A stretch of 42,001 bases of DNA from assembly GCF_026130045.1 (NCBI RefSeq), contig NZ_JAIBNX010000038.1, positions 7,468 through 49,468 on the forward strand, written 5' to 3'. This DNA is from Micromonospora sp. CPCC 205371. GTDB taxonomy: Bacteria; Actinomycetota; Actinomycetes; Mycobacteriales; Micromonosporaceae. The translations under genes were made by a program, and so were the position numbers. Of this stretch, positions 1-12,014 are shown piece after piece (the first letter of the stretch is position 1; each line of letters opens with the position of its first letter). The notes below the pieces were generated by a model. That model did no database searches, had not been told where the DNA came from, and saw only the letters and a list, made by a program, of their open reading frames with translations.

Positions 1-2538
1 CCCCGCCCGCACCGCCGGGCCCACCGGTGGGAGCGCGAAGTCGGCGGAGCCCTGCCCGGGCTGGCCGCCCCCCGCCGTGCCCTGCCACGGCGGCACCGCG
101 GACCCGCCCAGGCCCGCGAACCCGCACCGCCCCGCTACGGGCGTGCTCAGGGTGAGTCGTACTCGCGGCCAGAACATCCGGTCGTACCCGAGATCGTGAT
201 CGGTGCGAACGACGCTGACGTAGTGCAGCGCGGCGTCCCATGCGGCACGCAGGATCGCCCGCCGCGCCTCGGCCACCTCGGGTGGCACCGCCCCGTCCAG
301 GTGGTAGATGTCGGCGTAAAGAGTGGTCGCCCAATCGTGACTTGATGGCGCGCCAGCCGGCAAGGCAACCGAATGCACCAGTGAGCGGAATATCTCCGCC
401 ACTGTGACACCGGATGGCCGCGGGCCGGCGGGGTCCAGGATTCGTGATCGGTTCAGCGCACCGATCGGGTCCCGGGTGACGTCCAGGTCCCGGTACGCCT
501 CCGCGAGGGCGGCCCGGTGCGCGGCCAGCAGGCCGCCGCGCGCCCGCACCGCGTCGAGCCCGAGTTGCTCGGCGGCCGCCTCGTCGACATCCCGCAACTC
601 CAGCACGTCGTCGGCGCCGGCGAGGCGCAGATAGTCGCGAAGGCGGTGCTGGTACGCCTCCGTGATCGTGTGGGGGCGTATCCGGAAATGGTTGCCGTCC
701 GTCAGCAATGTGATGCGCAGCCCGGGTGGGTAGACGCCGGCGACGGCGGTGGCGAGTTCGCGGAGCCGGACCAGCAGCGCGAGTTCGGCGAGATCCGGCA
801 GGGTACCGAGGGCCTTGAGCCGGCTGTCCGCCTGCTTCACCGGGAACGCGGGCAACACCACGTGGATGGGTTCCCCCCGCTCGACGTACGGTCCGATGTC
901 GCGGGCCGCCGTGTCGAGCGAGTAGGCCGAACGCGCGCCACGCCGGAACCGCTTGCGGGTCAGCACGTGGTACACCAGCGCCGTGGGCGTCGCATCGCCC
1001 TGCCGCTTGGCACGCGTCGCGGTCTCGTCGGCGGCTGCCAGCGCGCTGCGAACCAACCGCTCCACCACGCCGAGCGACTCCGATCGTGACAGGTACACGC
1101 CGTGTCCGGTGAGTACCGGACGCGTCCCTAGCTCGCCGACGTGCAGTTCACCCACCGAATGCGCGTGCGACAGCACGGGACCGTCGAGCGGGCGCGGCAG
1201 GCGCTCGAACGTCGACACGGTCGCCGTGCCGGCGTTCGGCTCATCTCCGGGGACGAACCCGGGAAGGGTGACAGCCACCATCCGGGCGCCCGGCAGCGCT
1301 CGGGCCAGGGCTTCGCGGTTGTCGGCGAGGTCGTCGAAGACCGCGACGATGTCGAGATCCGCGACCTTCGCGGTGTGTACGGCCTTCAGCTCGGCCACCG
1401 GTCGGATCCGATCGTCCGGCATCATCAGCAGTCGCTGTCCCAGCAACCCGCCATTGGCCAGCGCGGCCTCGGTCGGCGTCCGGACGCGTTCGCGCCGGCC
1501 GGTGTTGAAAACCACCGTCCCGCCGCGGTCCTCCACGTCACGGATGAACCGTACGACCCCTTTGGCCAGGTCATCGTGTGCGAGCCTGGCCCATGGCCGG
1601 TGAAATGCTCGGCAGTAGTCGAGCCGCATCGCCTCGAAATCGACGTCGGGATATGCCCGCGACAACCCGTTCGCCTTGATGAAGCGCCGCCACGCCTGGG
1701 GCTGGTCGGTGGGCAGCAGATCCAACAGCTCTGGATACGCCAGCTCAAGGATGCCGTCGGGTGCGCCGGGGCGCGGCGCGCTGACCTGACGGGCCGCGTG
1801 CAACGTCCGGTCACGCGGATCGAGGACGACGAAATCCAGATCCATCATCACCGCCGGCCGCGGCAGCGAAGGGTCCGCCCGGCGCAGCCGGGCCCGCTCC
1901 TCGACCTCATCGAGTACGCCTCGCAGCGTACGGTCTTGTGCTTCGGGTACACAGTGGACATGCGCGGCGAGCGGGTGATCCCCGCGCAGCATGTCAGCGG
2001 TCGCCGGCCGGAGAAAGCGCAGTTCCTTGGCGGCGACCCGCCATACTCGCGATCGCATGTCATCCGCTGAGGGTCCGCCCGGGGCGAGCGCCGCCGCGAT
2101 CAGGTCGAGACAGCGCGCGAGGTCCCGGGCCGCCCGGTCGACGTCTGCCGGCGAGGACGGTGGGTTCGGTCCAGATAGGACCACACGTCCGGTCACCCGG
2201 TGTGGCGGGACGAGTTCGATCGCGACGCTCTCCGGGGCGGTGTCCATGACGGCGCCGGTGTGCTCCAGCGCAACGCGGAAGACCGTCACCAACGGGCGTA
2301 CCAGAAACTCCGCCCAGCGGTCCTCCTGGCGAAGGGCGGATCGTAGTTTCCCATCCGCGAGCAGCACGGCGAGCGGGACCCCTTCGGTGCCCCCTGGGTA
2401 CCCGGGAGGCGCCGGCCCCGGCCCCCGCCGGGGCGCCCCCCCCGCATACAGGCGCAGCAGTGGGTGGCGGGCCACCGCGGCCGTCACGACATTCTTGAGC
2501 CCCAGCACACGCCCCAGTGAAGCCGCTGCAGCTTTCAT
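1..2538 (-). CDS. HAD-domain / isocyanide synthase (DIT1/PvcA family) fusion, 3' end beyond window
   Basis: Open from the ATG at 2538 to the window edge without a stop (846 codons seen); the C-terminus is missing. Residues 1-220 are unassigned. Residues about 225-410 look like a HAD-superfamily domain: DLD (233-235, motif I), FNTGR (344-348, motif II) and a DD pair (402-403) after VAVF. From about residue 505 the protein matches isocyanide synthases (DIT1/PvcA, e.g. P. aeruginosa PvcA): GEPIHVVLPAFPVK (555-568), LGTLPDLAEL (577-586) and ITLLTDGNHF. Family members convert the alpha-amino group of an amino acid to an isonitrile using ribulose-5-phosphate. The C-terminal part visible here ends in a PPWQGT segment. 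It is transcribed divergently from the FAAL/ACAD/ACP operon and shares its promoter region. A weak AGCAGG lies just before the ATG; a downstream GTG at codon 11 is possible. Substrate unknown. The family call is firm; the role of the HAD part is inference. Confidence 0.8.
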   Translation of the reverse strand, partial: MKAAAASLGRVLGLKNVVTAAVARHPLLRLYAGGAPRRGPGPAPPGYPGGTEGVPLAVLLADGKLRSALRQEDRWAEFLVRPLVTVFRVALEHTGAVMDTAPESVAIELVPPHRVTGRVVLSGPNPPSSPADVDRAARDLARCLDLIAAALAPGGPSADDMRSRVWRVAAKELRFLRPATADMLRGDHPLAAHVHCVPEAQDRTLRGVLDEVEERARLRRADPSLPRPAVMMDLDFVVLDPRDRTLHAARQVSAPRPGAPDGILELAYPELLDLLPTDQPQAWRRFIKANGLSRAYPDVDFEAMRLDYCRAFHRPWARLAHDDLAKGVVRFIRDVEDRGGTVVFNTGRRERVRTPTEAALANGGLLGQRLLMMPDDRIRPVAELKAVHTAKVADLDIVAVFDDLADNREALARALPGARMVAVTLPGFVPGDEPNAGTATVSTFERLPRPLDGPVLSHAHSVGELHVGELGTRPVLTGHGVYLSRSESLGVVERLVRSALAAADETATRAKRQGDATPTALVYHVLTRKRFRRGARSAYSLDTAARDIGPYVERGEPIHVVLPAFPVKQADSRLKALGTLPDLAELALLVRLRELATAVAGVYPPGLRITLLTDGNHFRIRPHTITEAYQHRLRDYLRLAGADDVLELRDVDEAAAEQLGLDAVRARGGLLAAHRAALAEAYRDLDVTRDPIGALNRSRILDPAGPRPSGVTVAEIFRSLVHSVALPAGAPSSHDWATTLYADIYHLDGAVPPEVAEARRAILRAAWDAALHYVSVVRTDHDLGYDRMFWPRVRLTLSTPVAGRCGFAGLGGSAVPPWQGTAGGGQPGQGSADFALPPVGPAVRAG

Positions 2539-2590
2539 CCTGCTTTCACCATGCTTGGTCCGACATCGGCCGATGAAAGAGCGATGAAAG
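2532..2590. promoter_or_regulatory. Paired 11-bp-spaced octamer repeats, candidate SARP/PhoP-type operator
   Basis: On the plus strand CTTTCATC (2532-2539) and CTTTCACC (2543-2550) are exactly 11 bp apart. GATGAAAG occurs at 2572-2579 and again at 2583-2590, also 11 bp apart, and is the inverse complement of the first motif. Two tandem pairs therefore face each other between divergent genes. Direct repeats with one helical turn of spacing are the hallmark of OmpR-type winged-helix activators (SARPs, AfsR, PhoP). A TAGCGT -10-like hexamer follows the right pair at 2601-2606. The left pair overlaps the first codons of the minus-strand gene, so either its true start lies downstream or the site also blocks it. 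Confidence 0.55.
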
Positions 2591-2650
2591 ACCACCTCGT
2601 TAGCGTGGGGCCGGACATCAGGCCGATCGAGGGACAGAGCGAGAATCCGC

Positions 2651-3481
2651 ATGGGTAGTGGACGAGTCACCGCCGGCGGCGCGGAGCTGTATTACGAGAC
2701 TCACGGTGCGGGTCCGGACATGCTGCTGATAGCGGGCGCGGGCGGCACCGCGGCCAGCTTCACCGGCGTCGTGCCGTTCCTGGCCGAGCGGTTCCGTCTC
2801 GTCACCTACGATCGGCGAGGACTCAACCGCAGCACCGGCCGGGACTCGCATGCCGGCACGATGCGGCAACAGGCCGCCGACGTACTGGCCGTCCTCGACG
2901 CCGCCGGTGCCGAGCGTCCGATCGTCTTCGGCACGTGCGGCGGAGCCTCTATCGGGTTCGAATTGTCCGCCCGGTACCCCGACCGTGTGCGGGGCCTTGT
3001 CGCGCACGAACCCATCACGGTACGCGTGCTCGACGACGCGGCCGCGCAGCTGGAGTTCTTTCGGCAGATGTGTGAGCAGAACGTCCGCGAGGGCCCGATG
3101 CCGGCCATGATGCGGTGGATGACGTACATGGGCCGTGATTTCGAGTTGAAGATCCGGCCGGCGTTCCGGGAACGGACGCTCGCCGATGGTGACTTCGTCT
3201 TCCGCCACGACCTGATGCCCATGGTGGAGTATCTGCCCGACGCGTCCAGCCTGGCGGACCGGGTCCCGGTCACGCTGGCCGTCGGTGAGGGCAGTCGAAA
3301 GGGCGACTACAGCTACGCACGGACCGTCCTTCCGCTCGCCCGGATGCTGGGGTGCGAGGTCGCGGAGATACCCGGACACCACACCTCATACATCTACCGG
3401 CCGGACGTGTTCGGTCCAGCCCTGGGAGAGCAGGCGCTTTCACTGATCGGGCGGCTGGCGTCGAAGGCGACGAACGAATGA
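2651..3481 (+). CDS. Alpha/beta hydrolase with cysteine at the nucleophile elbow
   Basis: 276 aa, the first gene of the divergent operon. The fold markers are a glycine-rich oxyanion strand (LLIAGAGGTAASF), YDRRG at 53-57, the nucleophile elbow FGTCGGAS (93-100) and a C-terminal GHH (242-244) supplying the catalytic His. The elbow residue is Cys96 (codon TGC at 2936-2938), where most relatives have Ser. Cys nucleophiles are known in dienelactone hydrolases and some thioesterases or cyclases. The ATG at 2651 is chosen because the protein begins directly with the first beta strand; upstream GAG/AGAG is only a modest ribosome site. Its stop overlaps the FAAL start by 4 bp (ATGA), so it is translationally coupled. 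Probable role: thioesterase or release/editing hydrolase for the ACP-bound chain; this is inferred from context. Confidence 0.8.
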   Translation: MGSGRVTAGGAELYYETHGAGPDMLLIAGAGGTAASFTGVVPFLAERFRLVTYDRRGLNRSTGRDSHAGTMRQQAADVLAVLDAAGAERPIVFGTCGGASIGFELSARYPDRVRGLVAHEPITVRVLDDAAAQLEFFRQMCEQNVREGPMPAMMRWMTYMGRDFELKIRPAFRERTLADGDFVFRHDLMPMVEYLPDASSLADRVPVTLAVGEGSRKGDYSYARTVLPLARMLGCEVAEIPGHHTSYIYRPDVFGPALGEQALSLIGRLASKATNE

Positions 3482-5178
3482 CACAGGCGCCCAACTTTGT
3501 GGCGGCGATCCGTAGCACCGTAGAACTGCACGGCGATGACCGCTGGTACGCCTTTGTCCGCGCGGGCCGAGGCGAGCTGGTCGAGGAACGGTACACCTTC
3601 GCCGAACTCGACGCCCGGGCGCGTTCGGTCGCCGCATGGCTTACCGGTGCCGGCTGGCAGGACCGTACGGTACTCCTGCTCTATCCGGCGGGACCGGAGT
3701 TCTTCGTCGCCTTCCTCGGCTGCCTCTACGCCCGCGTCATCGCGGCGCCGTCGCCGCTGCCCTCGGAGGACCCACGCGGTCTGCATCGGCTGGTGAGTAT
3801 CGCTCGCGACGCCGACGTACGACTGGTACTCACGGACGGGGCGTCCCGCGACGGGCTCGCCGCATCGCTGGTCGAGCACGGCCTCGGACACATCACGTGT
3901 GTGGCCACCGACTCGCTGGCGTTGCCGGCTGCCTCGGCGTGGGCTGCTCCCCCGATGGGACCCAACACGGTCGCCTTCCTCCAATACACATCGGGTTCGA
4001 CCAGCGAGCCCAAGGGCGTCGTGCTGTCGCACGCCAACCTGCTGCACAACGAACACGCCATCTGGACAAAGCTCGGCAGCCCCTCGGGTGGGACCCTCGT
4101 GGGCTGGCTCCCGCACTACCACGACATGGGGCTCATCGGCATGCTGATCCAGCCTCTGTACGCCGCGCTGAACCTGGCCATCACATCGCCGGCGACATTC
4201 GTCAGACGTCCCGCCACCTGGCTGGAGCTCATCAGCCGGTACCGCGCCGACATCACCGCCGCACCGAACTTCGGCTACGAATGGTGCCTACGAAGAGTCA
4301 CCGACGCGCAGCTCGCCGGTCTGGACCTTTCGTCGCTGCGGATCGCGATGAACGGCGCCGAGCCGATCCAGCCCCGCACTCTCCGCGCGGTGTGTGAACG
4401 GCTGGAACCGTCGGGCTTCCGTCCGGAGACGTGGATGCCCGTCTACGGCATGGCCGAGGCGACGCTCATCATCGCGGGCGCCGGCCGGCGGCAGGGCGCG
4501 ACGATCCGCACCTTCCGGGCCGACGAGCTGGAAAGACGCCGGGCGGTACCGTCCGGAAGCGGCATCGAGCTGGTCGCGTGTGGCCGGCCTCTCGACTTCG
4601 ACGTTCGCATCGTCGACCCGGACACGCTGGCCGAACTGGCCGATTCCGAGGTGGGCGAGATCTGGCTGAGCGGCGGAAGCGTCGCCACCGGCTACTGGCG
4701 GCAGGAGGCTGTATCGGCCGAGACGTTCCAGGCCCGTACGAAGGCGGGAGCCGGCCCCTTCCTGCGCACCGGCGACCTCGGATTCCGCCACGACGGCGAG
4801 CTCTACATCACCGGGCGCCTCAAGGACCTGATCATCGTCAACGGGCGAAACCTGTACCCGCAGGATCTGGAGGAAGCCGCGTTGATCCACCCCGCGGTGG
4901 GTGTCGCGGCCGCCTTCGCCCCCGACGGCGATCTGGACCGGGTGGTGCTCATCCAGGAGTTGCGGATGTCGGGTCTCGCGGAGGAGCAGGTGCCCGACCT
5001 GGCTGAACGGGTCCAGGCCACGCTGGCCCACATGTTCACGATCCCCGCGCCCACGGTGCTTTTCGTGCGTCGTGGCGCCGTCGCCAAGACCACGAGTGGC
5101 AAGGTACGGCGCGGGCACATGCGCGCCCAGTTCCTCGGCGGCACCCTCGTGCCCGTCCACACACGGGCGGGGGCCTGA
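3478..5178 (+). CDS. Fatty acyl-AMP ligase (FAAL-type), loads a fatty acid onto an ACP
   Basis: 566 aa, the usual FAAL length. ATG 3478 overlaps the preceding stop, so it is preferred over upstream in-frame codons. ANL-superfamily motifs are intact: YTSGSTSEPKG (170-180, A3 phosphate loop), LPHYHDMGL, YGMAEAT, the TGD/GR hinge region and SGK with the catalytic Lys at 542. The segment ISRYRADITAAPNFGYEWC is typical of FAALs (FadD32 type) rather than fatty acyl-CoA ligases. Family reaction: fatty acid plus ATP gives acyl-adenylate, then acyl transfer to the phosphopantetheine arm of an ACP; the partner ACP is encoded at 8627. The downstream gene starts within its stop codon (TGATG). It is the activation step of the cluster. 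The chain length cannot be read from sequence. Confidence 0.92.
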   Translation: MTQAPNFVAAIRSTVELHGDDRWYAFVRAGRGELVEERYTFAELDARARSVAAWLTGAGWQDRTVLLLYPAGPEFFVAFLGCLYARVIAAPSPLPSEDPRGLHRLVSIARDADVRLVLTDGASRDGLAASLVEHGLGHITCVATDSLALPAASAWAAPPMGPNTVAFLQYTSGSTSEPKGVVLSHANLLHNEHAIWTKLGSPSGGTLVGWLPHYHDMGLIGMLIQPLYAALNLAITSPATFVRRPATWLELISRYRADITAAPNFGYEWCLRRVTDAQLAGLDLSSLRIAMNGAEPIQPRTLRAVCERLEPSGFRPETWMPVYGMAEATLIIAGAGRRQGATIRTFRADELERRRAVPSGSGIELVACGRPLDFDVRIVDPDTLAELADSEVGEIWLSGGSVATGYWRQEAVSAETFQARTKAGAGPFLRTGDLGFRHDGELYITGRLKDLIIVNGRNLYPQDLEEAALIHPAVGVAAAFAPDGDLDRVVLIQELRMSGLAEEQVPDLAERVQATLAHMFTIPAPTVLFVRRGAVAKTTSGKVRRGHMRAQFLGGTLVPVHTRAGA

Positions 5179-6923
5179 TGGAGGGTGGCCCGGCCTACGA
5201 CCCGCTTGCCCCCGCGCGCGACCTGGAACGGCGGCTGGGCGACCCGACCGACCCTACCGTCGCCTTCTCGTTCGCCCGGATACGCGATCTCGACGAACGG
5301 GAGGAGTTTCCTGAGGCCATTTGCGATGGCTTGACCTCCTGGGGTTTGCACGAATACTTCGTACCGGCGGAGTACGGCGGGCGGCTCCACTCTTACGAGC
5401 AGCTCCTGCACCTTGTCCGGCTGGTCGCGCGGCGGGACCTCACCGCGGCCATCGGATACGGAAAGACGTTCCTCGGCGCGGTGTCCGCATGGATCGCGGC
5501 CACTCCCGAGCAGTGCGCGGGACTGGCCGCGAAGATCCTCGACGGTGCGCCCGTGTCGTGGGCTCTGACCGAGCGAGAGCACGGCAGCGACCTGCTCGCC
5601 AGCGAGGTGACCGCGACACGGCGGGACCAGTCCTACCGGCTCAACGGTGAAAAGTGGCTCATCAACAACGCCACTCGCGGCAGGCTCCTGTCGGTGCTGG
5701 CGCGCACCGACGCCGCCGGCGGCGCCCGCGGGTTCGGCGTGCTGCTCGTGGACAAGAACGATCTGCCACCGGGAACGCTGACATGCCTGCCCAAGGTCCA
5801 GACGTTGGGCATTCGGGGCGCGGACATCAGCGGCATCGCGTTCACCGACGCGGTGGTCCCTGATGCGGCACACCTGGGGCCACCGGGGTCCGGCATCGAG
5901 ATTGTCCTCAAAGGACTACAGCTGACCCGGACGATGTGCGCCAGCCTCTCCCTCGGCGCCAGCGAACACGCGCTGCGCATCGCCATGAACTGGGCCGCCA
6001 CTCGCCAGCTCTACGGCCGTACCCTGGCAGACCTGCCCATGGCGAGGCGGTTACTGCTCGACGCGTACACCGATCAGCTGAGCGCGGAGGCGGCGGCGAT
6101 CGTCGCCAGCCGGATGATCCATTGGAACCCGGAGGAGCTGAGCGTCGCCAGCGCCGTCGTCAAGTACGCGCTGCCGGTGCGGTCCGAAAACACCATCGCG
6201 GCCCTCGGCAGGCTGCTGGGCGCCCGGTCGATCCTCTCCGGCGGTGACTTCCAGAAGGTCGCCCGGGATGCTCGTATCGTTTCCCTGTTCGACGGGAACA
6301 CCCTGGTCAATCTGCATGCGGTCGTCGCACAGTTTCCCAACCTCGTGCGCGGCTACCGGCGCGGGCGCGCGTTCACCGACGTGGCACCGGCGGCCGACGT
6401 GAGCCGGGCCGTGCCGCCTTTCGAGCGTGACCGGCTCAGGCTGTTCTCCCGGTACGGGCTCAGCGCGGTGACCGCGCTGCCGGATACCGCCGCGGTGCTT
6501 GCCTGCCTGGCGGAGACGGCACCCGCCCTGAAGCCCGCCGCGGAACTGGCCCACGCCCTCGCGGCGCGCACCGAGCGGCTTCACGCGTCGATCGCCGCCT
6601 TGCCGCCCGCCAGGGGCAGCGCCCCGGTCGCACACCTGCATCGAGCGAAAGACTTCACCGAGTGCTACCTCGGTGCCGCGGCGATCGCTCTGTGGCTCGC
6701 CAACCATGGCCGTGCCACCAACCTGGACACCGGTCCGCTCTGGGAAGGCGGGCTCTGGTTGACGGCCGTCCTTCGCCGTGTGTTGACCACCCTCGGTGAA
6801 CCGGCACCGGCCGACCCGGATACGGACGAGATCCTGTGGACGCACATGGCCGCGCAGGCGTCGTCGGGACGGATGTTCTCGCTCTTCGATTGCCAGCTCG
6901 CCGAAGGAATGCGCGATGCCTAG
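5178..6923 (+). CDS. Acyl-CoA dehydrogenase homologue 1 (probable acyl-ACP desaturating flavoenzyme)
   Basis: 581 aa; the ATG at 5178 shares its A with the FAAL stop. The ACAD fold is recognisable: N-terminal helical region with EYFVPAEYGGRL, the signature WALTEREHGSD (128-138, normally LTEPxAGSD), LNGEKWLINNA, the mid-domain GFGVLLVDK, and the C-terminal helices with RQLYGRTLADLP. Where the classical catalytic Glu sits (IYEGT in medium-chain enzymes) this protein has LFDGN (370-374), so Asp372 is the candidate base. About 170 residues follow the core, making it longer than a standard 380-aa ACAD. Pairs of ACADs next to an acyl ligase and ACP are known from lipodepsipeptide clusters such as ramoplanin and enduracidin, where they are thought to make dienoyl chains. 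Here no NRPS is visible. Its stop overlaps the next start by 8 bp. Confidence 0.85.
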   Translation: MEGGPAYDPLAPARDLERRLGDPTDPTVAFSFARIRDLDEREEFPEAICDGLTSWGLHEYFVPAEYGGRLHSYEQLLHLVRLVARRDLTAAIGYGKTFLGAVSAWIAATPEQCAGLAAKILDGAPVSWALTEREHGSDLLASEVTATRRDQSYRLNGEKWLINNATRGRLLSVLARTDAAGGARGFGVLLVDKNDLPPGTLTCLPKVQTLGIRGADISGIAFTDAVVPDAAHLGPPGSGIEIVLKGLQLTRTMCASLSLGASEHALRIAMNWAATRQLYGRTLADLPMARRLLLDAYTDQLSAEAAAIVASRMIHWNPEELSVASAVVKYALPVRSENTIAALGRLLGARSILSGGDFQKVARDARIVSLFDGNTLVNLHAVVAQFPNLVRGYRRGRAFTDVAPAADVSRAVPPFERDRLRLFSRYGLSAVTALPDTAAVLACLAETAPALKPAAELAHALAARTERLHASIAALPPARGSAPVAHLHRAKDFTECYLGAAAIALWLANHGRATNLDTGPLWEGGLWLTAVLRRVLTTLGEPAPADPDTDEILWTHMAAQASSGRMFSLFDCQLAEGMRDA

Positions 6924-8595
6924 CGGACTTGAGGCAGTGCTAGGGGATTCCCGCGACGACGGTAACCCGGTCAGCTACGAGGAGATCGTGCGCGCAGACG
7001 AGCGCGGCGAGCTACTCGCGGCCGGGGAAGACGCATTGACGTCCTGGGCTTTCAACGCCGAGTTCGTCCCACCGCACCTTGGCGGGAGGCTGCGGGCCGC
7101 CGATGAGTTGGTCCGCCGGATCCGCCCGGTCTTCCGCCGTGACATCGGCCTCGGGCTCGGCTACGGGGTCACCTCGTTGATGGCCGCGGTCAACGTGTGG
7201 TCGGCGGGAACGCAACAGCAGCAGCGCCGGGCGGCCGAGCTGTTGTTGCGCGGCGACCGATTGGCCGTGGCGTACCACGAGTTGGCCCATGGCAACGACT
7301 TCAGCCGCAACGAGTTCGAGGCCCGCTGGGAAGACGAGCAGGTCCGGCTCTCCGGTACCAAAGAGCTGATAAACAACGTCGCCTGCGCGGCCGCTTTCGT
7401 GCTGTTCGCCCGCACCGAGCAAGGCGGCGGCCCGCGCGGACACTCGCTGTTCCTGGTCGAAAACGACACCGCTGGCCTGGTGCACCTCCCCCGGACGCAG
7501 ACCAGCGGAGTGCGCGGGGTCCAACTCGGCGGTCTGCTGGCCCGCGATTGCGCGGTGCCCGCCGGAGCGCTGCTCGGCGATCGGGGCCAGGGAGTGGAGA
7601 CAGCGCTGCGCTCATTCCAGGTCACCCGGGCCGTCCTACCGGGCCTGGCGGTCGGCGCGGTGGACACCGCGCTGCGCACGGTCGTGCGATTCGCCGCGTC
7701 CCGCCGACTGTACGGCGCTACGGTTTTGGACCTGCCACACTCCCAGGAGGTACTCGCCGGCGCCTTTGTCGACCTGCTCGTCGCCGACGCGTTGGCGACT
7801 GTCGCGTGTCGCGGGCTCCACCTTCTGCCGGAACAGGCGTCGCTGCACGCCGCCGCCACGAAGTATCTCGTCGCCCGGCTGCTCACCGATGCCGTGGAGG
7901 ATCTGGCGGTCATCCTCGGCGCCCGCTACTACCTGCGGGAGGGTCCAGGCTCGATCTTCGGAAAGCACCTGCGCGACCTGCCAGTGATCAGCCTGGGACA
8001 CGCGGGCGAGACGGCATGCTTGTTGGCGATAATCGCGCAACTGCCCGCGCTTTCGCGGCGCGCCTGGCAGGAGCCGGCGACACCGCCACCGGCGCTGTTC
8101 GACCCCGCCGCGGCCCTGCCGGAGCTGACGTTCACCCGACTGGCGCTTTCCAGCGCCGGCCGCGACGACGTCACCGGCCTGCTGCACAGCGCTGCGGAAC
8201 ACCGCCCGGAAGCCGACATCGGCCCGAAGCCAGGTGCGCTCGTGGTCAGTCTGGGCGACCATCTGCGCGCCCTCGCCGAGCGTGCGTCCGCCATCCCTCC
8301 GCTTCGCCGGGGACCGCTCGCCGACGCGGAGACCTTCGCGCTGGCAGAAAACTACGCCCTGCTGCTCGGCGCTGCGGCGGCTGTTGGCGTATGGCGCGCC
8401 CGCCGCACCCGTGGAGACACGTTCCTCGGCGACCCGCGCTGGCTGACCGCGGCACTGGCCCGGCTGCACGCGCGCTTGACGCGAACGACGGCACCGCTGC
8501 CCGGTGGGACCGTCGAATGGCTACTCCGCGAGCTTGTATGCCGCGAGCGCGACGGCTTGTCTCTCGATCTGAGCCGAACGCCGGTTCTGACCTGA
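6916..8595 (+). CDS. Acyl-CoA dehydrogenase homologue 2, divergent partner of the preceding ACAD
   Basis: 559 aa, starting at ATG 6916 inside the end of the previous gene (8-bp overlap). It is a paralogue of ACAD 1: both share EFVPPHLGGRL/EYFVPAEYGGRL, GTKELINN/GEKWLINN, RRLYGATVLDLP/RQLYGRTLADLP and a matching C-terminal extension. It is more degenerate. The ACAD signature reads YHELAHGND (120-128), and the catalytic-Glu segment aligned with LFDGN reads LGHAG (360-364), placing His362 where the base should be. It may be a non-catalytic subunit of a heteromeric dehydrogenase, or use another base. A heteromeric ACAD built from two unequal subunits is known for some actinobacterial steroid-degradation enzymes. 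The pair probably acts on the ACP-bound acyl chain; that is inferred from operon context. Confidence 0.82.
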   Translation: MPSGLEAVLGDSRDDGNPVSYEEIVRADERGELLAAGEDALTSWAFNAEFVPPHLGGRLRAADELVRRIRPVFRRDIGLGLGYGVTSLMAAVNVWSAGTQQQQRRAAELLLRGDRLAVAYHELAHGNDFSRNEFEARWEDEQVRLSGTKELINNVACAAAFVLFARTEQGGGPRGHSLFLVENDTAGLVHLPRTQTSGVRGVQLGGLLARDCAVPAGALLGDRGQGVETALRSFQVTRAVLPGLAVGAVDTALRTVVRFAASRRLYGATVLDLPHSQEVLAGAFVDLLVADALATVACRGLHLLPEQASLHAAATKYLVARLLTDAVEDLAVILGARYYLREGPGSIFGKHLRDLPVISLGHAGETACLLAIIAQLPALSRRAWQEPATPPPALFDPAAALPELTFTRLALSSAGRDDVTGLLHSAAEHRPEADIGPKPGALVVSLGDHLRALAERASAIPPLRRGPLADAETFALAENYALLLGAAAAVGVWRARRTRGDTFLGDPRWLTAALARLHARLTRTTAPLPGGTVEWLLRELVCRERDGLSLDLSRTPVLT

Positions 8596-8626
8596 TGTGA
8601 TCGGCGAAAGGAAGGAAGGAAGTGCG

Positions 8627-8875
8627 ATGCCTACGGTTGACCGTGCGACGGTGACGGCATGGCTCATCGAACGGGTCGCGTTCTATGTGGAGCGTGAGCC
8701 CGCCGACATCGACCCGACCAAGCACCTCGCGATGTATGGCATGGACTCGCTGTACGCGCTGGGACTGGCAGGAGACGTCGAAGACGAGTACGGCATCGAC
8801 CTCGACGCCGCGATCGTGTGGGACCACCCGACGATCGAGGCGATCGCGGCGTACGTGGCAACTGAGAGCGAGTGA
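8627..8875 (+). CDS. Acyl carrier protein
   Basis: 82 aa, discrete ACP. The phosphopantetheine attachment motif GMDSLYAL has Ser41 at the expected place, followed by the acidic helix II/III region (DVEDEYGIDL) and WDHPTIEAIAAYV, typical of PCP/ACP helix IV. ATG 8627 is chosen over an in-frame GTG at 8597 because a strong GGAAGGAAGG ribosome site sits 7-16 nt upstream and the domain begins directly after it. It is the last gene of the operon and the natural acceptor for the FAAL product and carrier for both ACADs. It ends 7 bp before the convergent SARP gene stop, leaving no room for a separate terminator. Confidence 0.92.
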   Translation: MPTVDRATVTAWLIERVAFYVEREPADIDPTKHLAMYGMDSLYALGLAGDVEDEYGIDLDAAIVWDHPTIEAIAAYVATESE

Positions 8876-8882
8876 CGGCTGC

Positions 8883-11800
8883 TCAGTTGGCCGCGCGGTG
8901 CAGGCTCTCCAAGCGGGTACGCACCACGTCCGCGTCGGGTGACTCGAGTTCGCTGTAGATGGTGAGCGCCCGCCCGTACTGCTCCCTTGCCTGACCGAGG
9001 TCACCGAGGGCAGCGCGGGCCTGCCCGAGGCCGGCATAGGCGCGGGCCTGCTGTTCGGGGTCGTCGATGTCCGCGGCGACGGTGAGCCCGGCCGTGTGGT
9101 GGGTGATGGCGTCGAGCGGTCGACCGGCCGCGTGAGCGGCTTCCCCGAGGCCGTTCAGCGCCCACGCCTGGCCCTCTTGGTCCCCGATCTCGCCGTAGAG
9201 CGACAGCGCCCGTTCGAAATAGCCGGCTGCCTGATCGGGTTGGTGGAGTTCACTGTGGACCATGCCGAGATTGTCCAGCGCACTGGCTTCGCCCGAGCGG
9301 TGACCGAGCTCCCGGAAGGCGACCACCGCCTGCTCGTGGAGCTCGATGGCCCGCTCGTGGTGTCCGAGTTTCTGCTCCGCGAGCCCGAGGTTGGTCAGCG
9401 CGGCGGCCTCGGCCGAGCGGTCGCCGAGGGTGCGGATCAGGACCAGCGCGTCCTGATGGCGCGTGACCGCCGCCCGGTAGTTGCCGAGGCGCTGTTCGAT
9501 GATGCCCGTGACGTTCAGTGCGCGTGCTCTGCCGATGAGGTCACCAGCGTCCCGGTATGCGGCGAGCGCCGCCTCGAGGTGGTCGAGCGCGGTCTGGAAC
9601 CGGCCGCCACGCACCTCGACCCTGCCGAGGTTGACCAGCGCCACACCCTCGCCGAGCCGGTCACCGGCCCGCCGGAACTGGTCCAACGCGCGCGCGAAGT
9701 GGTCGGCCGCCTCGCCACTGCGGCCCATCTCCAGATGGGCGCAACCCACACCGATCAGCGCCCAGCCCCGGCCGGCTGCGTCGCCGATATGCCGGGCGGC
9801 GTCGGCGGCGTAGCCGTGAAGGGTCAACGCGTCGGTGTAGTGGCCGCTGTCGAGGTACCGGTACAAGGTCATCGACAGGTGCACGGTGGCGGCCGGTACG
9901 CCGTGCTCGGCACCGTAGCGGGCGAGGGCGACCAATGTGGAACGTTCGCTGTCCAGCCAGCGGCGTGCCGTCTCGGCCTCCGCAACCTCCGGACCCGGCG
10001 TGGCCGGCCGCCGTACCGGGGGTCTGCGGTGGGTTTCAGCCGGGTACAAGGCGTCCATCGCGGCGGCCGCGGTCGACAGGTAGTAGTCGAGTAGCCGGCC
10101 AAGGGCCTCCCGCTGAACGCTGGCGCCGTCCTCCACCGCGGCGAGCCGGGCGGCGTAGGCGCGCAACAGGTCGTGCATGCCATATCGACCCGCCGCGGTC
10201 ACATGTACGAGGCTGGCGCGGACCAGCGCATCGAGGCCGCGCCGTGCGATCGCCGCTGTGGTACCGGCCAGAGCGGCGGTGGCGTAGGCGTCGTAGTCCA
10301 CACCTGGGTGCCGGCCGAGCAGTCGGAAGATGCGGGCGACGTCGGGAGTGAGGTGCCGCACGGACCAGGAGAACACCGACGTCACCGCCGCGCGCGGGTC
10401 GCCGCCGGCATCCAGCAGATCCAACCTTTGCTGCTGGTCGGCGAGCTCAGCCACGAGGTCGGTGAGGCTGTCACCGGGCCGCGACGCCACCAGTTCGGCG
10501 GCGACCCGCAGCGCTAGGGGCAGCCGCTCGCACAGGTCGGCCAGGGCCTCGATCGCCGGCGCGTCGTCGAGGGCGCGCCGACCGATCAGTCGATTGAGGA
10601 GGGTGTGCGCCTCCGCTGGCGGGAGCAGATCGAGGTCGACACGGCGGGCACCGTGGACGGCGACGAGTCCGGCGAGCCGATCCCGGCTCGTGATCACCAC
10701 CATGGCGCTCGCGCTGCCCGGTAGCAGCGGGCGCACCTGCTCGACCGAGCCGGCGTTGTCCAGGACGACCAGCATCCTCCTGCGGGCCACCTCGGTGCGG
10801 TACCGAGCCGCTCGCTCGTCGATCTCCGGCGGGATCTCCGCCCCGGGCACTCCGAGAGCGGTCAGGAAGCGGGCCAGGGCGTCGGCGGGTGTCACGGGCC
10901 GGTGGAGGTCGTAGCCTCGCAGGTTCACGTACAACTGGCCGTCCGGAAACCGTCCGGCGACGCGGTGCGCCCAGTGGATCACCAACGCGGTCTTTCCGAC
11001 CCCGGCCGTGCCGGACACCGCGGAGATCACCACCGCGTTGCCCGTGCCGCCATCCCCGGCGTCCGCGAGCCTGTCAAGATACGCCAGCTCGCCCTCCCGA
11101 CCGACGAAAGCCGGCACGTCCGCGGGTAGCTGCGCGGGCACCGTCACGCCCGCACCGCTGCTGGTCGCGGCGATGGATCGGCGCGGGGCGCCGTGCGGAC
11201 CAAGTGCCGGATCCCCCGCCAGGATCGCGCGGTGCAGTCGCTGGAGCGGCTCCCCGGGGTCTGTGCCCAGATCGTCGGCGAGACGCCGTCGGATCTCGTG
11301 GTACCGCGCGAGCGCGTCAGACTGTCGCCCGGAGCGGTAGAGCGCGGTCATGAGCTGGCTCGTGACGCGTTCGTCGAGTGGGTGGTCAGCGGTGAGCTTG
11401 GACAACTCGGCGACGACGGCGCCGTGCTCACCCAGGCGCAGCATGGCGTCGACGAGGTCGAACTGCGCCGTTCGCCGGACCTCGGCGAGTTCCGCCCGGA
11501 CGCTGCGGATCCAGGCGTTGTCGAGACCGGCGAACGGTTCACCGTGCCAGAGCGTCAGCGCCTCTTCCAAGCGTGCCGACGCCGCCTTGTCGTCCGCGGC
11601 CTCCCGGGCCTGCCTGAGCAAGGTGTGAAACAGGTGCACGTCGACCGTGGCCGGGTCCACGGCGAGCCGGTAGCCGGCGGACTGCCGCACGATGCTCACC
11701 TCGCTCGAACCGCCAAGCACCCGACGCAGCAGAGACAGGTACGTCCGCAGCGCGTTGACGGGGTCGGCGGGCAGGCGATGCCCGGCCCAGACCCGGTCGA

Positions 11801-12014
11801 TCAGGCGATCCACCGACACGGATCGGTTGGCGTCGACCGCCAACGCGACCAGGACGGTCTGCTGACGGGCGTGACCGATCGTCACCGGCCGGTTGGCGAT
11901 GGTGACCTCGATATCGCCGAGCAGCCTGAAGCACGCAGCCAACCACGCCTCCCCAGGCATCGCGATGTGACTTCCGCTGCTGTACAGGTTCCCCGGTCGG
12001 CCGGCCCGATTCAA
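8883..12014 (-). CDS. Large SARP regulator (AfsR-like: wHTH-BTAD-NB-ARC-TPR)
   Basis: 1043 aa from the TTG at 12014, or 1025 aa from the ATG at 11960. The TTG has AGGAAA about 7 nt upstream; the ATG gives the more usual short lead before FRLLGDIEV. Domains in order: OmpR-type winged helix (about 28-115, ending SAGYRLAVD), bacterial transcriptional-activation domain (about 120-270, VDVHLFHTLLRQA to GEPLQRLHRAIL), NB-ARC/STAND ATPase with P-loop GTAGVGKT (335-342), LVVLDNA and VVITSRDRL, then about ten TPR units (about 700-1040). Family role: activation of secondary-metabolite promoters at 11-bp-spaced direct repeats, with ATPase/TPR signal input. The matching repeats lie at 2532-2590, making it the likely activator of the isocyanide/FAAL locus. 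It converges with the ACP gene and diverges from the secreted pair. Confidence 0.9.
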   Translation of the reverse strand: MNRAGRPGNLYSSGSHIAMPGEAWLAACFRLLGDIEVTIANRPVTIGHARQQTVLVALAVDANRSVSVDRLIDRVWAGHRLPADPVNALRTYLSLLRRVLGGSSEVSIVRQSAGYRLAVDPATVDVHLFHTLLRQAREAADDKAASARLEEALTLWHGEPFAGLDNAWIRSVRAELAEVRRTAQFDLVDAMLRLGEHGAVVAELSKLTADHPLDERVTSQLMTALYRSGRQSDALARYHEIRRRLADDLGTDPGEPLQRLHRAILAGDPALGPHGAPRRSIAATSSGAGVTVPAQLPADVPAFVGREGELAYLDRLADAGDGGTGNAVVISAVSGTAGVGKTALVIHWAHRVAGRFPDGQLYVNLRGYDLHRPVTPADALARFLTALGVPGAEIPPEIDERAARYRTEVARRRMLVVLDNAGSVEQVRPLLPGSASAMVVITSRDRLAGLVAVHGARRVDLDLLPPAEAHTLLNRLIGRRALDDAPAIEALADLCERLPLALRVAAELVASRPGDSLTDLVAELADQQQRLDLLDAGGDPRAAVTSVFSWSVRHLTPDVARIFRLLGRHPGVDYDAYATAALAGTTAAIARRGLDALVRASLVHVTAAGRYGMHDLLRAYAARLAAVEDGASVQREALGRLLDYYLSTAAAAMDALYPAETHRRPPVRRPATPGPEVAEAETARRWLDSERSTLVALARYGAEHGVPAATVHLSMTLYRYLDSGHYTDALTLHGYAADAARHIGDAAGRGWALIGVGCAHLEMGRSGEAADHFARALDQFRRAGDRLGEGVALVNLGRVEVRGGRFQTALDHLEAALAAYRDAGDLIGRARALNVTGIIEQRLGNYRAAVTRHQDALVLIRTLGDRSAEAAALTNLGLAEQKLGHHERAIELHEQAVVAFRELGHRSGEASALDNLGMVHSELHQPDQAAGYFERALSLYGEIGDQEGQAWALNGLGEAAHAAGRPLDAITHHTAGLTVAADIDDPEQQARAYAGLGQARAALGDLGQAREQYGRALTIYSELESPDADVVRTRLESLHRAAN

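Follow-up and report, generated by a model that had tools for sequence, protein, structure and literature searches.

Isonitriles bind metals, and several of them are antibiotics. Enzymes of the PvcA/IsnA type build the isonitrile group out of an amine and ribulose-5-phosphate. The synthases known to form them include the PvcA/IsnA/XanB isonitrile (isocyanide) synthases of family PF05141, for which the consulted part of a 2018 survey distinguishes three architectures: the isocyanide synthase (ICS), ICS-DOX (dioxygenase) and ICS-NRPS (nonribosomal peptide synthetase) (PMC5974471). Other routes rely on different enzymes. As far as the consulted portions of the sources go, ScoE, part of a nonribosomal pathway, is an Fe/alpha-ketoglutarate oxidase whose substrate is a glycine adduct (PMC7949033), and amycomicin is made with AmcQ, AmcB and three P450s, no DIT1 synthase being named there (PMC13273461). 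On the lipid side, the excerpt used on rotihibin describes RthH-I-J-K as a fatty acyl-AMP ligase (FAAL), two acyl-CoA/ACP dehydrogenases (ACADs) and an acyl carrier protein (ACP), the two ACADs being put forward as the basis of desaturation, like those of ramoplanin (PMC8552735). The locus considered here brings a relative of the isonitrile synthases next to such a lipid cassette. It lies in a 42,001-nucleotide stretch (the window) of Micromonospora sp. CPCC 205371, which forms the right-hand part of the 49,468-bp contig C312 (C312:7468-49468) of a 9.36-Mb genome and has a GC content of about 69%. In this window, the gene of a long synthase with a HAD and a DIT1/PvcA domain diverges from a hydrolase-FAAL-ACAD-ACAD-ACP operon, and the two units may together form a compact, NRPS-free cluster with one product.

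This divergent arrangement had been recognised in an earlier note on the same DNA, and open reading frames (ORFs) together with domain scans confirm each of its genes. All six are there, their frames open and their junctions tight, and the locus is laid out as follows.

1-2538, minus strand: long HAD-DIT1 synthase, with an N-terminal region (residues 1-205), a HAD domain (about 205-430) and a DIT1/PvcA domain (about 500 to the end)
2539-2650, no strand: intergenic region of 112 bp between the divergent synthase and operon, presumed (without a scan) to hold both promoters
2651-3481, plus strand: alpha/beta hydrolase (by Pfam and homologs) with Cys in the nucleophile elbow, a proposed acyltransferase or thioesterase
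3478-5178, plus strand: FAAL, called by rank of models; a longer ORF begins at 3352
5178-6923, plus strand: ACAD1, with Asp (FDGNT) against YEGT in the PDB relative 3pfd
6916-8595, plus strand: ACAD2, with His at the matching position, placed by counting from the RD motif
8627-8875, plus strand: ACP, with a DSL phosphopantetheine site
8883-12014, minus strand: AfsR-like SARP regulator (BTAD, NB-ARC, TPR), convergent with the operon

The minus-strand ORF of the synthase spans 1-2670; ATG 2538 is its likely start and is preferred to an in-frame GTG at 2670, which would overlap the neighbouring gene. Because the starts of FAAL, ACAD1 and ACAD2 overlap the preceding stop, the hydrolase, FAAL, ACAD, ACAD and ACP genes are read as one operon. 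The AfsR-like SARP protein is a possible but unproven regulator of the cluster. The earlier statement that neither NRPS nor polyketide synthase (PKS) genes are in sight holds for the contig: no condensation domain is matched on the 49,468 bp of C312, and Pfam scans of the subset of contig ORFs tested gave no PKS domain. The absence of a ScoE oxidase is likewise borne out, as the genome contains two matches to the TauD family and C312 none.

The long synthase is recognised by its DIT1_PvcA domain (PF05141; E 7.6e-19, 68.7 bits against a cut-off of 26.4; long-ORF residues 595-702), the direct match spanning only model positions 4-112 of 273. Profile comparison reveals homology along the PvcA domain: long synthases (19 rows, 15 used) aligned by hhalign with eight canonical PvcA-type proteins give a probability of 99.3 and an E-value of 1.5e-20 over 225 columns, covering template positions 64-303 of 338. 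A nine-sequence profile of the DIT1 region matches PvcA 3e59 (E 7.9e-13) as well as 9dhm/9dh4, and the FPxK, PD, AE, YPPG and DG motifs are retained in the long DIT1 domain. The HAD region scores 26.6 bits with the acid phosphatase model PF03767, just below its cut-off of 27, and the best solved relative of a seven-sequence profile of this region is the acid phosphatase 7cle (E 7.8e-4). By eye, HAD motifs I-IV (D-x-D, N-T-G-R, K and F-D-D) are all present. The fusion is as unusual as had been supposed, with no counterpart among the three architectures given in the consulted part of the survey (PMC5974471). An AlphaFold2 model of the synthase from a four-row alignment was too poor to use (mean pLDDT 54, pTM 0.40) and was set aside.

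The lipid-loading part of the operon resembles that of lipopeptide clusters, as the earlier note had proposed: the FAAL, ACAD, ACAD and ACP genes are adjacent and follow the same order as RthH-K in the excerpt on rotihibin (PMC8552735). The FAAL is identified by the rank of its models, since every score falls below its cut-off (fatty-acid--AMP ligase up to 397 bits, one CoA-ligase 316, amino-acid adenylation 144). Its top four PDB matches carry the names polyketide synthase or saframycin synthetase; the next eleven are mostly FadD23/28/32-type AMP ligases and their kin. Relatives of ACAD1, accepted at E up to 1e-40, were detected in 38 of 300 family genomes, including its own. For comparison, 20 cassette loci were fetched from the 37 further genomes in which an ACAD was matched, three of them (L067, L080 and L083) being cut by contig ends; ACAD1 and ACAD2 are each matched at all 20, and FAAL and ACP at 18 each, the two ACAD matches at L086 falling on the same ORF. 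The DG[NS]T motif of ACAD1 has Asp in the window and at all 20 loci. At the usual ACAD base position, ACAD2 by eye has His rather than an acid in the window and at 19 of the 20 loci, L086 being the exception. The position of this Asp and His is presumably catalytic. A condensation domain is found within the fetched stretch at 8 of the 20 loci and at none of the remaining 12. Six loci without such a match (L077, L078, L079, L081, L082 and L084) share KASIII-like, ATP-grasp and pyridoxal phosphate-dependent decarboxylase genes, with an aminotransferase in five of the six (Pfam on L078 only); L077 (G031) comes from the window's own genus.

Alone among the operon genes, the leading hydrolase is unmatched at all 20 cassette loci. 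In its nucleophile elbow, G-T-C-G-G, the Cys codon (tgc) lies at window positions 2936-2938, and Ser occupies the nucleophile position in all 12 homologs retrieved at E up to 1e-30 from 11 other genomes (150 family genomes searched). PHROGs and NCBIfam place the protein only among esterases/lipases and other alpha/beta hydrolases, all NCBIfam models scoring below their cut-offs. Cys nucleophiles occur in some thioesterases and in dienelactone hydrolase, and the residue hints at an acyl-transfer or release enzyme that may act on the ACP.

The long synthases form a group of their own. When nine long DIT1 proteins were placed in a tree with nine shorter ones, L011, L088, L089 and L094 being left out for want of a usable ORF, the long ones separated with support of 100/100. 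They were detected in 6 of 354 family genomes, including the window's own, and in 2 of 250 genomes in the family of Nonomuraea zeae, including that genome (locus L065). A DIT1-only profile (A5) applied across the order matched 12 of 239 genomes, again including the window's own, with G1013 contributing contig-edge fragments only. Most genome searches scored few candidates per genome, and these counts are lower bounds. Another profile (A2), run on 394 genomes with two candidates scored per listed genome, recovered a single full-length gene, the window's own; given the A5 matches, these misses do not amount to absence. A scan with the window synthase alone returned 19 pattern matches and no relative, an alignment-based scan then gave three loci, and a plasmid search for the synthase produced zero matches. 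Altogether 20 long-synthase loci were studied, including the window, and 19 rows were aligned: the G1013 edge fragments (L179 and L180) carried no genes and were dropped, and for G1143 the neighbours were examined, its gene being not called whole and left unaligned. As judged by eye, 9 of the 19 rows keep intact HAD motifs (the window, G062, G135, G040, G046, G691, G919a, G1151a and G1151b), and in the other 10 these motifs are eroded or missing.

The partner genes of these synthases vary. Those of G040 and G135 lie beside a stand-alone adenylation (A) domain, a carrier-thioesterase and a weakly scoring ATP-grasp protein, that of G062 beside a stand-alone A domain, and that of G1020 beside a thioesterase-domain protein and an ATP-grasp protein. 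In G062, G135 and G040 the synthase also diverges from the stand-alone adenylating-enzyme gene, so that the layout of a synthase facing an adenylation operon recurs; the facing A domains are at L022 10544-12073, L024 9098-10579 and L019 16194-17750. The A domain of G135 reads D-F-W-Q-V-G-M-V-H by eye at what we take to be the GrsA code positions, which is near a threonine code. The synthases of G919b and G691 are found among NRPS genes, and that of G010 is near A-domain, carrier and NRPS-like (BLAST only) genes. The closest relative of the window synthase is its sister from G919b, with 63-64% identity in the DIT1 region and support of 99/98; this gene (L110 8987-11401) retains only remnants of the HAD domain, and its NRPS cluster also includes a lyase and an ABC transporter. 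Eight further loci of family f3 (L168-L171, L173, L174, L176 and L177) form one clade in the tree. A gene of 460-472 aa stands beside the synthase in all eight, encoding a helix-turn-helix-TPR regulator in the two loci tested by Pfam, and a gene of 304-323 aa occurs in six, where Pfam, run on two of them, indicates an APH kinase-like protein. This is a conserved locus in which the HAD motifs are eroded except in G1151a. Separately, about 5-6 kb away from its long synthase, G062 carries a standard PvcA-type synthase (L019 6791-8605) with a TauD oxidase after it, and in G031 a DIT1 gene is followed by a relative of the G062 TauD protein.

From the gene content, domain families, operon-like junctions, divergent layout, Cys change and clade membership, we infer one product for both units, with the following chemistry and regulation. 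The FAAL would adenylate a fatty acid and load it onto the ACP, where the two ACADs would make the bound acyl group 2-unsaturated, perhaps 2,4-dienoyl. The HAD-DIT1 synthase would turn the amine of an amino acid or amino-acyl compound into an isonitrile with carbon from a pentose phosphate, and its intact HAD domain may handle a phosphorylated substrate or intermediate. The Cys hydrolase would move the unsaturated acyl group from the ACP to the isonitrile unit, as an ester or amide, or release it; its gene occupies the place that an NRPS or ATP-grasp ligase has in some related loci. The SARP protein would control expression. A single NRPS-free pathway appears the most economical explanation because only 112 bp separate an uncommon synthase from a lipid operon, because the operon contains an unusual acyl-handling enzyme and because three relatives likewise have the synthase opposite an adenylating-enzyme gene. 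One cluster is also supported by the operon being a lipopeptide-type lipid-loading set in RthH-I-J-K order, by the occurrence of this cassette elsewhere without condensation domains, by the homology of the DIT1 domain along the PvcA domain and by the intact HAD motifs.

Several observations weigh against a single pathway. The conserved co-occurrence that the earlier note had put forward as a check was not found: the window ACADs and hydrolase are unmatched at the 19 other long-synthase loci (tblastn 1e-5, 18 stretches of 15-50 kb), and the synthase is matched at none of the 20 fetched cassette loci, so the pairing was seen once only. The window FAAL gives weak tblastn matches (23-34%) in the G040, G010, G919b and G135 stretches, which carry A domains. 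The NRPS cluster around the sister synthase of G919b gives no match to the ACADs or the hydrolase, and its FAAL match is weak (23%) and A-domain-like. The window has no enzyme obviously joining an isonitrile acid to acyl-ACP, and other contigs of the genome hold 55 condensation matches, possible clients of the ACP; with no condensation domain at 12 of the 20 cassette loci, its absence near the window cassette says little. The synthase itself scores 47 bits against a cut-off of 600 with the NCBIfam equivalog for tyrosine isonitrile synthase (PvcA), lacks the His of the C-terminal SIHP motif and carries an assembly gap. Because the pairing was seen in no second genome, the nearest synthase stands beside an NRPS and the isonitrile chemistry of the clade is unproven, the whole mechanism is given a probability of about 0.35.

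The alternative that survives best, although doubtful, treats the two units as separate neighbours, the cassette feeding an unsaturated starter acyl-ACP to an NRPS encoded on another contig, as in the ramoplanin/rotihibin type, and the synthase making a small product of its own. The condensation matches elsewhere in the genome agree with this, as do the condensation domains at 8 of the 20 cassette loci, the frequency of the cassette in the family (the 38 of 300 genomes with ACAD1 relatives), the separate transcription unit of the synthase and the unconserved pairing. The lack of a condensation domain on the 49.5-kb contig is a weak argument against it, since 12 of the 20 cassette loci are alike in this respect. 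The leading Cys hydrolase, matched at 0 of 20 cassette loci, also speaks against it, since the operon is then not a plain cassette.

It is unlikely that, instead of an isonitrile, the long clade forms some related compound, for instance a formamide or a different condensate of an amine and a sugar phosphate, which is then acylated. The SIHP motif fits this reading: all eight canonical PvcA-type proteins compared carry it, and its possibly catalytic His is absent from 18 of the 19 aligned long rows, including the window, with G1020 keeping it. The separation of the clade from the shorter PvcA-type proteins at 100/100, the extra HAD domain and a direct Pfam match limited to positions 4-112 of 273 point the same way. 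Against these stand the profile comparison, which spans template positions 64-303 of 338, and the retention of the FPxK, PD, AE, YPPG and DG motifs. Isonitrile formation by the long clade is thus a sequence-based proposal, as yet unproven.

The synthase gene extends beyond the left edge of the window. A 10-N gap (L003 7458-7467) lies directly before window base 1; the window part of the gene ends at profile position 828, its C-terminus is found across the gap (profile positions 813-870 at C312:7257-7460, E 1e-14), and the gene runs left to about C312:7245. Both sides of the gap (window 1-90 and the left flank) encode overlapping versions of one synthase stretch; the contig joint is therefore badly assembled, and synthase integrity across the gap cannot be judged. 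That the locus is a relict, in which an isonitrile NRPS cluster like that of G919b lost its NRPS and left a remnant no longer working as a pathway, is quite improbable: the NRPS setting of the sister synthase and the gap with its duplicated stretch at the C-terminus fit such a history, but all six ORFs are long, open and tightly joined, the HAD domain keeps its motifs, G919b has no ACAD or hydrolase match from which the operon could be left over, and the gap, a run of 10 N, belongs to the assembly.

Beyond the gap, Pfam recognises a mycothiol-S-transferase, a RibD-like protein, an AraC regulator and a short-chain dehydrogenase/reductase, and its scan of two further left-flank ORFs gave no match. 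The left flank, which the earlier note had wanted examined in case the synthase was part of an unrelated cluster, is ordinary and gives the synthase no other cluster to belong to. To the right of the SARP gene, the ORFs scanned encode an amidohydrolase, a tannase-like protein, a branched-chain amino-acid-type ABC ATPase, AMP-binding enzymes and other unrelated functions.

The new branch of isonitrile lipids that the earlier note envisaged is accordingly upheld in part: its gene content and the fused synthase stand, the pairing is not conserved, and the isonitrile step is unproven in a clade where 18 of 19 rows lack the SIHP His. The fuller proposal of a further isonitrile synthase architecture with a built-in HAD phosphatase, which together with a lipid-loading operon and a Cys-nucleophile acyltransferase would yield isonitrile lipids without NRPS or PKS, is rather unlikely. 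If true, it would add a further route to isonitrile-bearing lipids beside the ScoE and amycomicin routes, and if the pairing works as proposed, this route would need six genes. The HAD-bearing PvcA clade, with motifs kept or lost and varied partner genes, may also be regarded as a natural experiment in coupling the isonitrile step to carrier-protein chemistry.

Among the titles and abstract starts listed by searches of open-licence literature, none names a DIT1/PvcA synthase together with a FAAL and ACADs, but several known systems share parts with the window. The ScoA-E isonitrile lipopeptide route is alike in pairing a ligase and a carrier protein with a putative isonitrile step; a ScoE-type route was set aside for the window, as C312 has no TauD-family and no condensation match. 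The comparison with amycomicin and aerocyanidin drawn in the earlier note holds loosely: an isonitrile-bearing fatty acid is a possible product type, and an amycomicin-type route was set aside because the enzymes named for it, among them AmcQ, which we take to be a ScoE-like oxidase, are lacking. With respect to the rotihibin/ramoplanin type, the window has an additional Cys hydrolase in front, an isonitrile-synthase relative facing the operon and no NRPS on the contig. The PvcA/IsnA/XanB synthases share the PvcA domain, by profile and by the FPxK, PD, YPPG and DG motifs, whereas the window synthase has a long N-terminal region and a HAD domain, belongs to a separate group at 100/100 and is without the SIHP His. 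Fungal CrmA, an ICS-NRPS, is similar in combining a PvcA domain with adenylation chemistry; its NRPS parts are fused in one fungal protein, according to the consulted part of the survey (PMC5974471), whereas in the window separate genes and a FAAL take their place.

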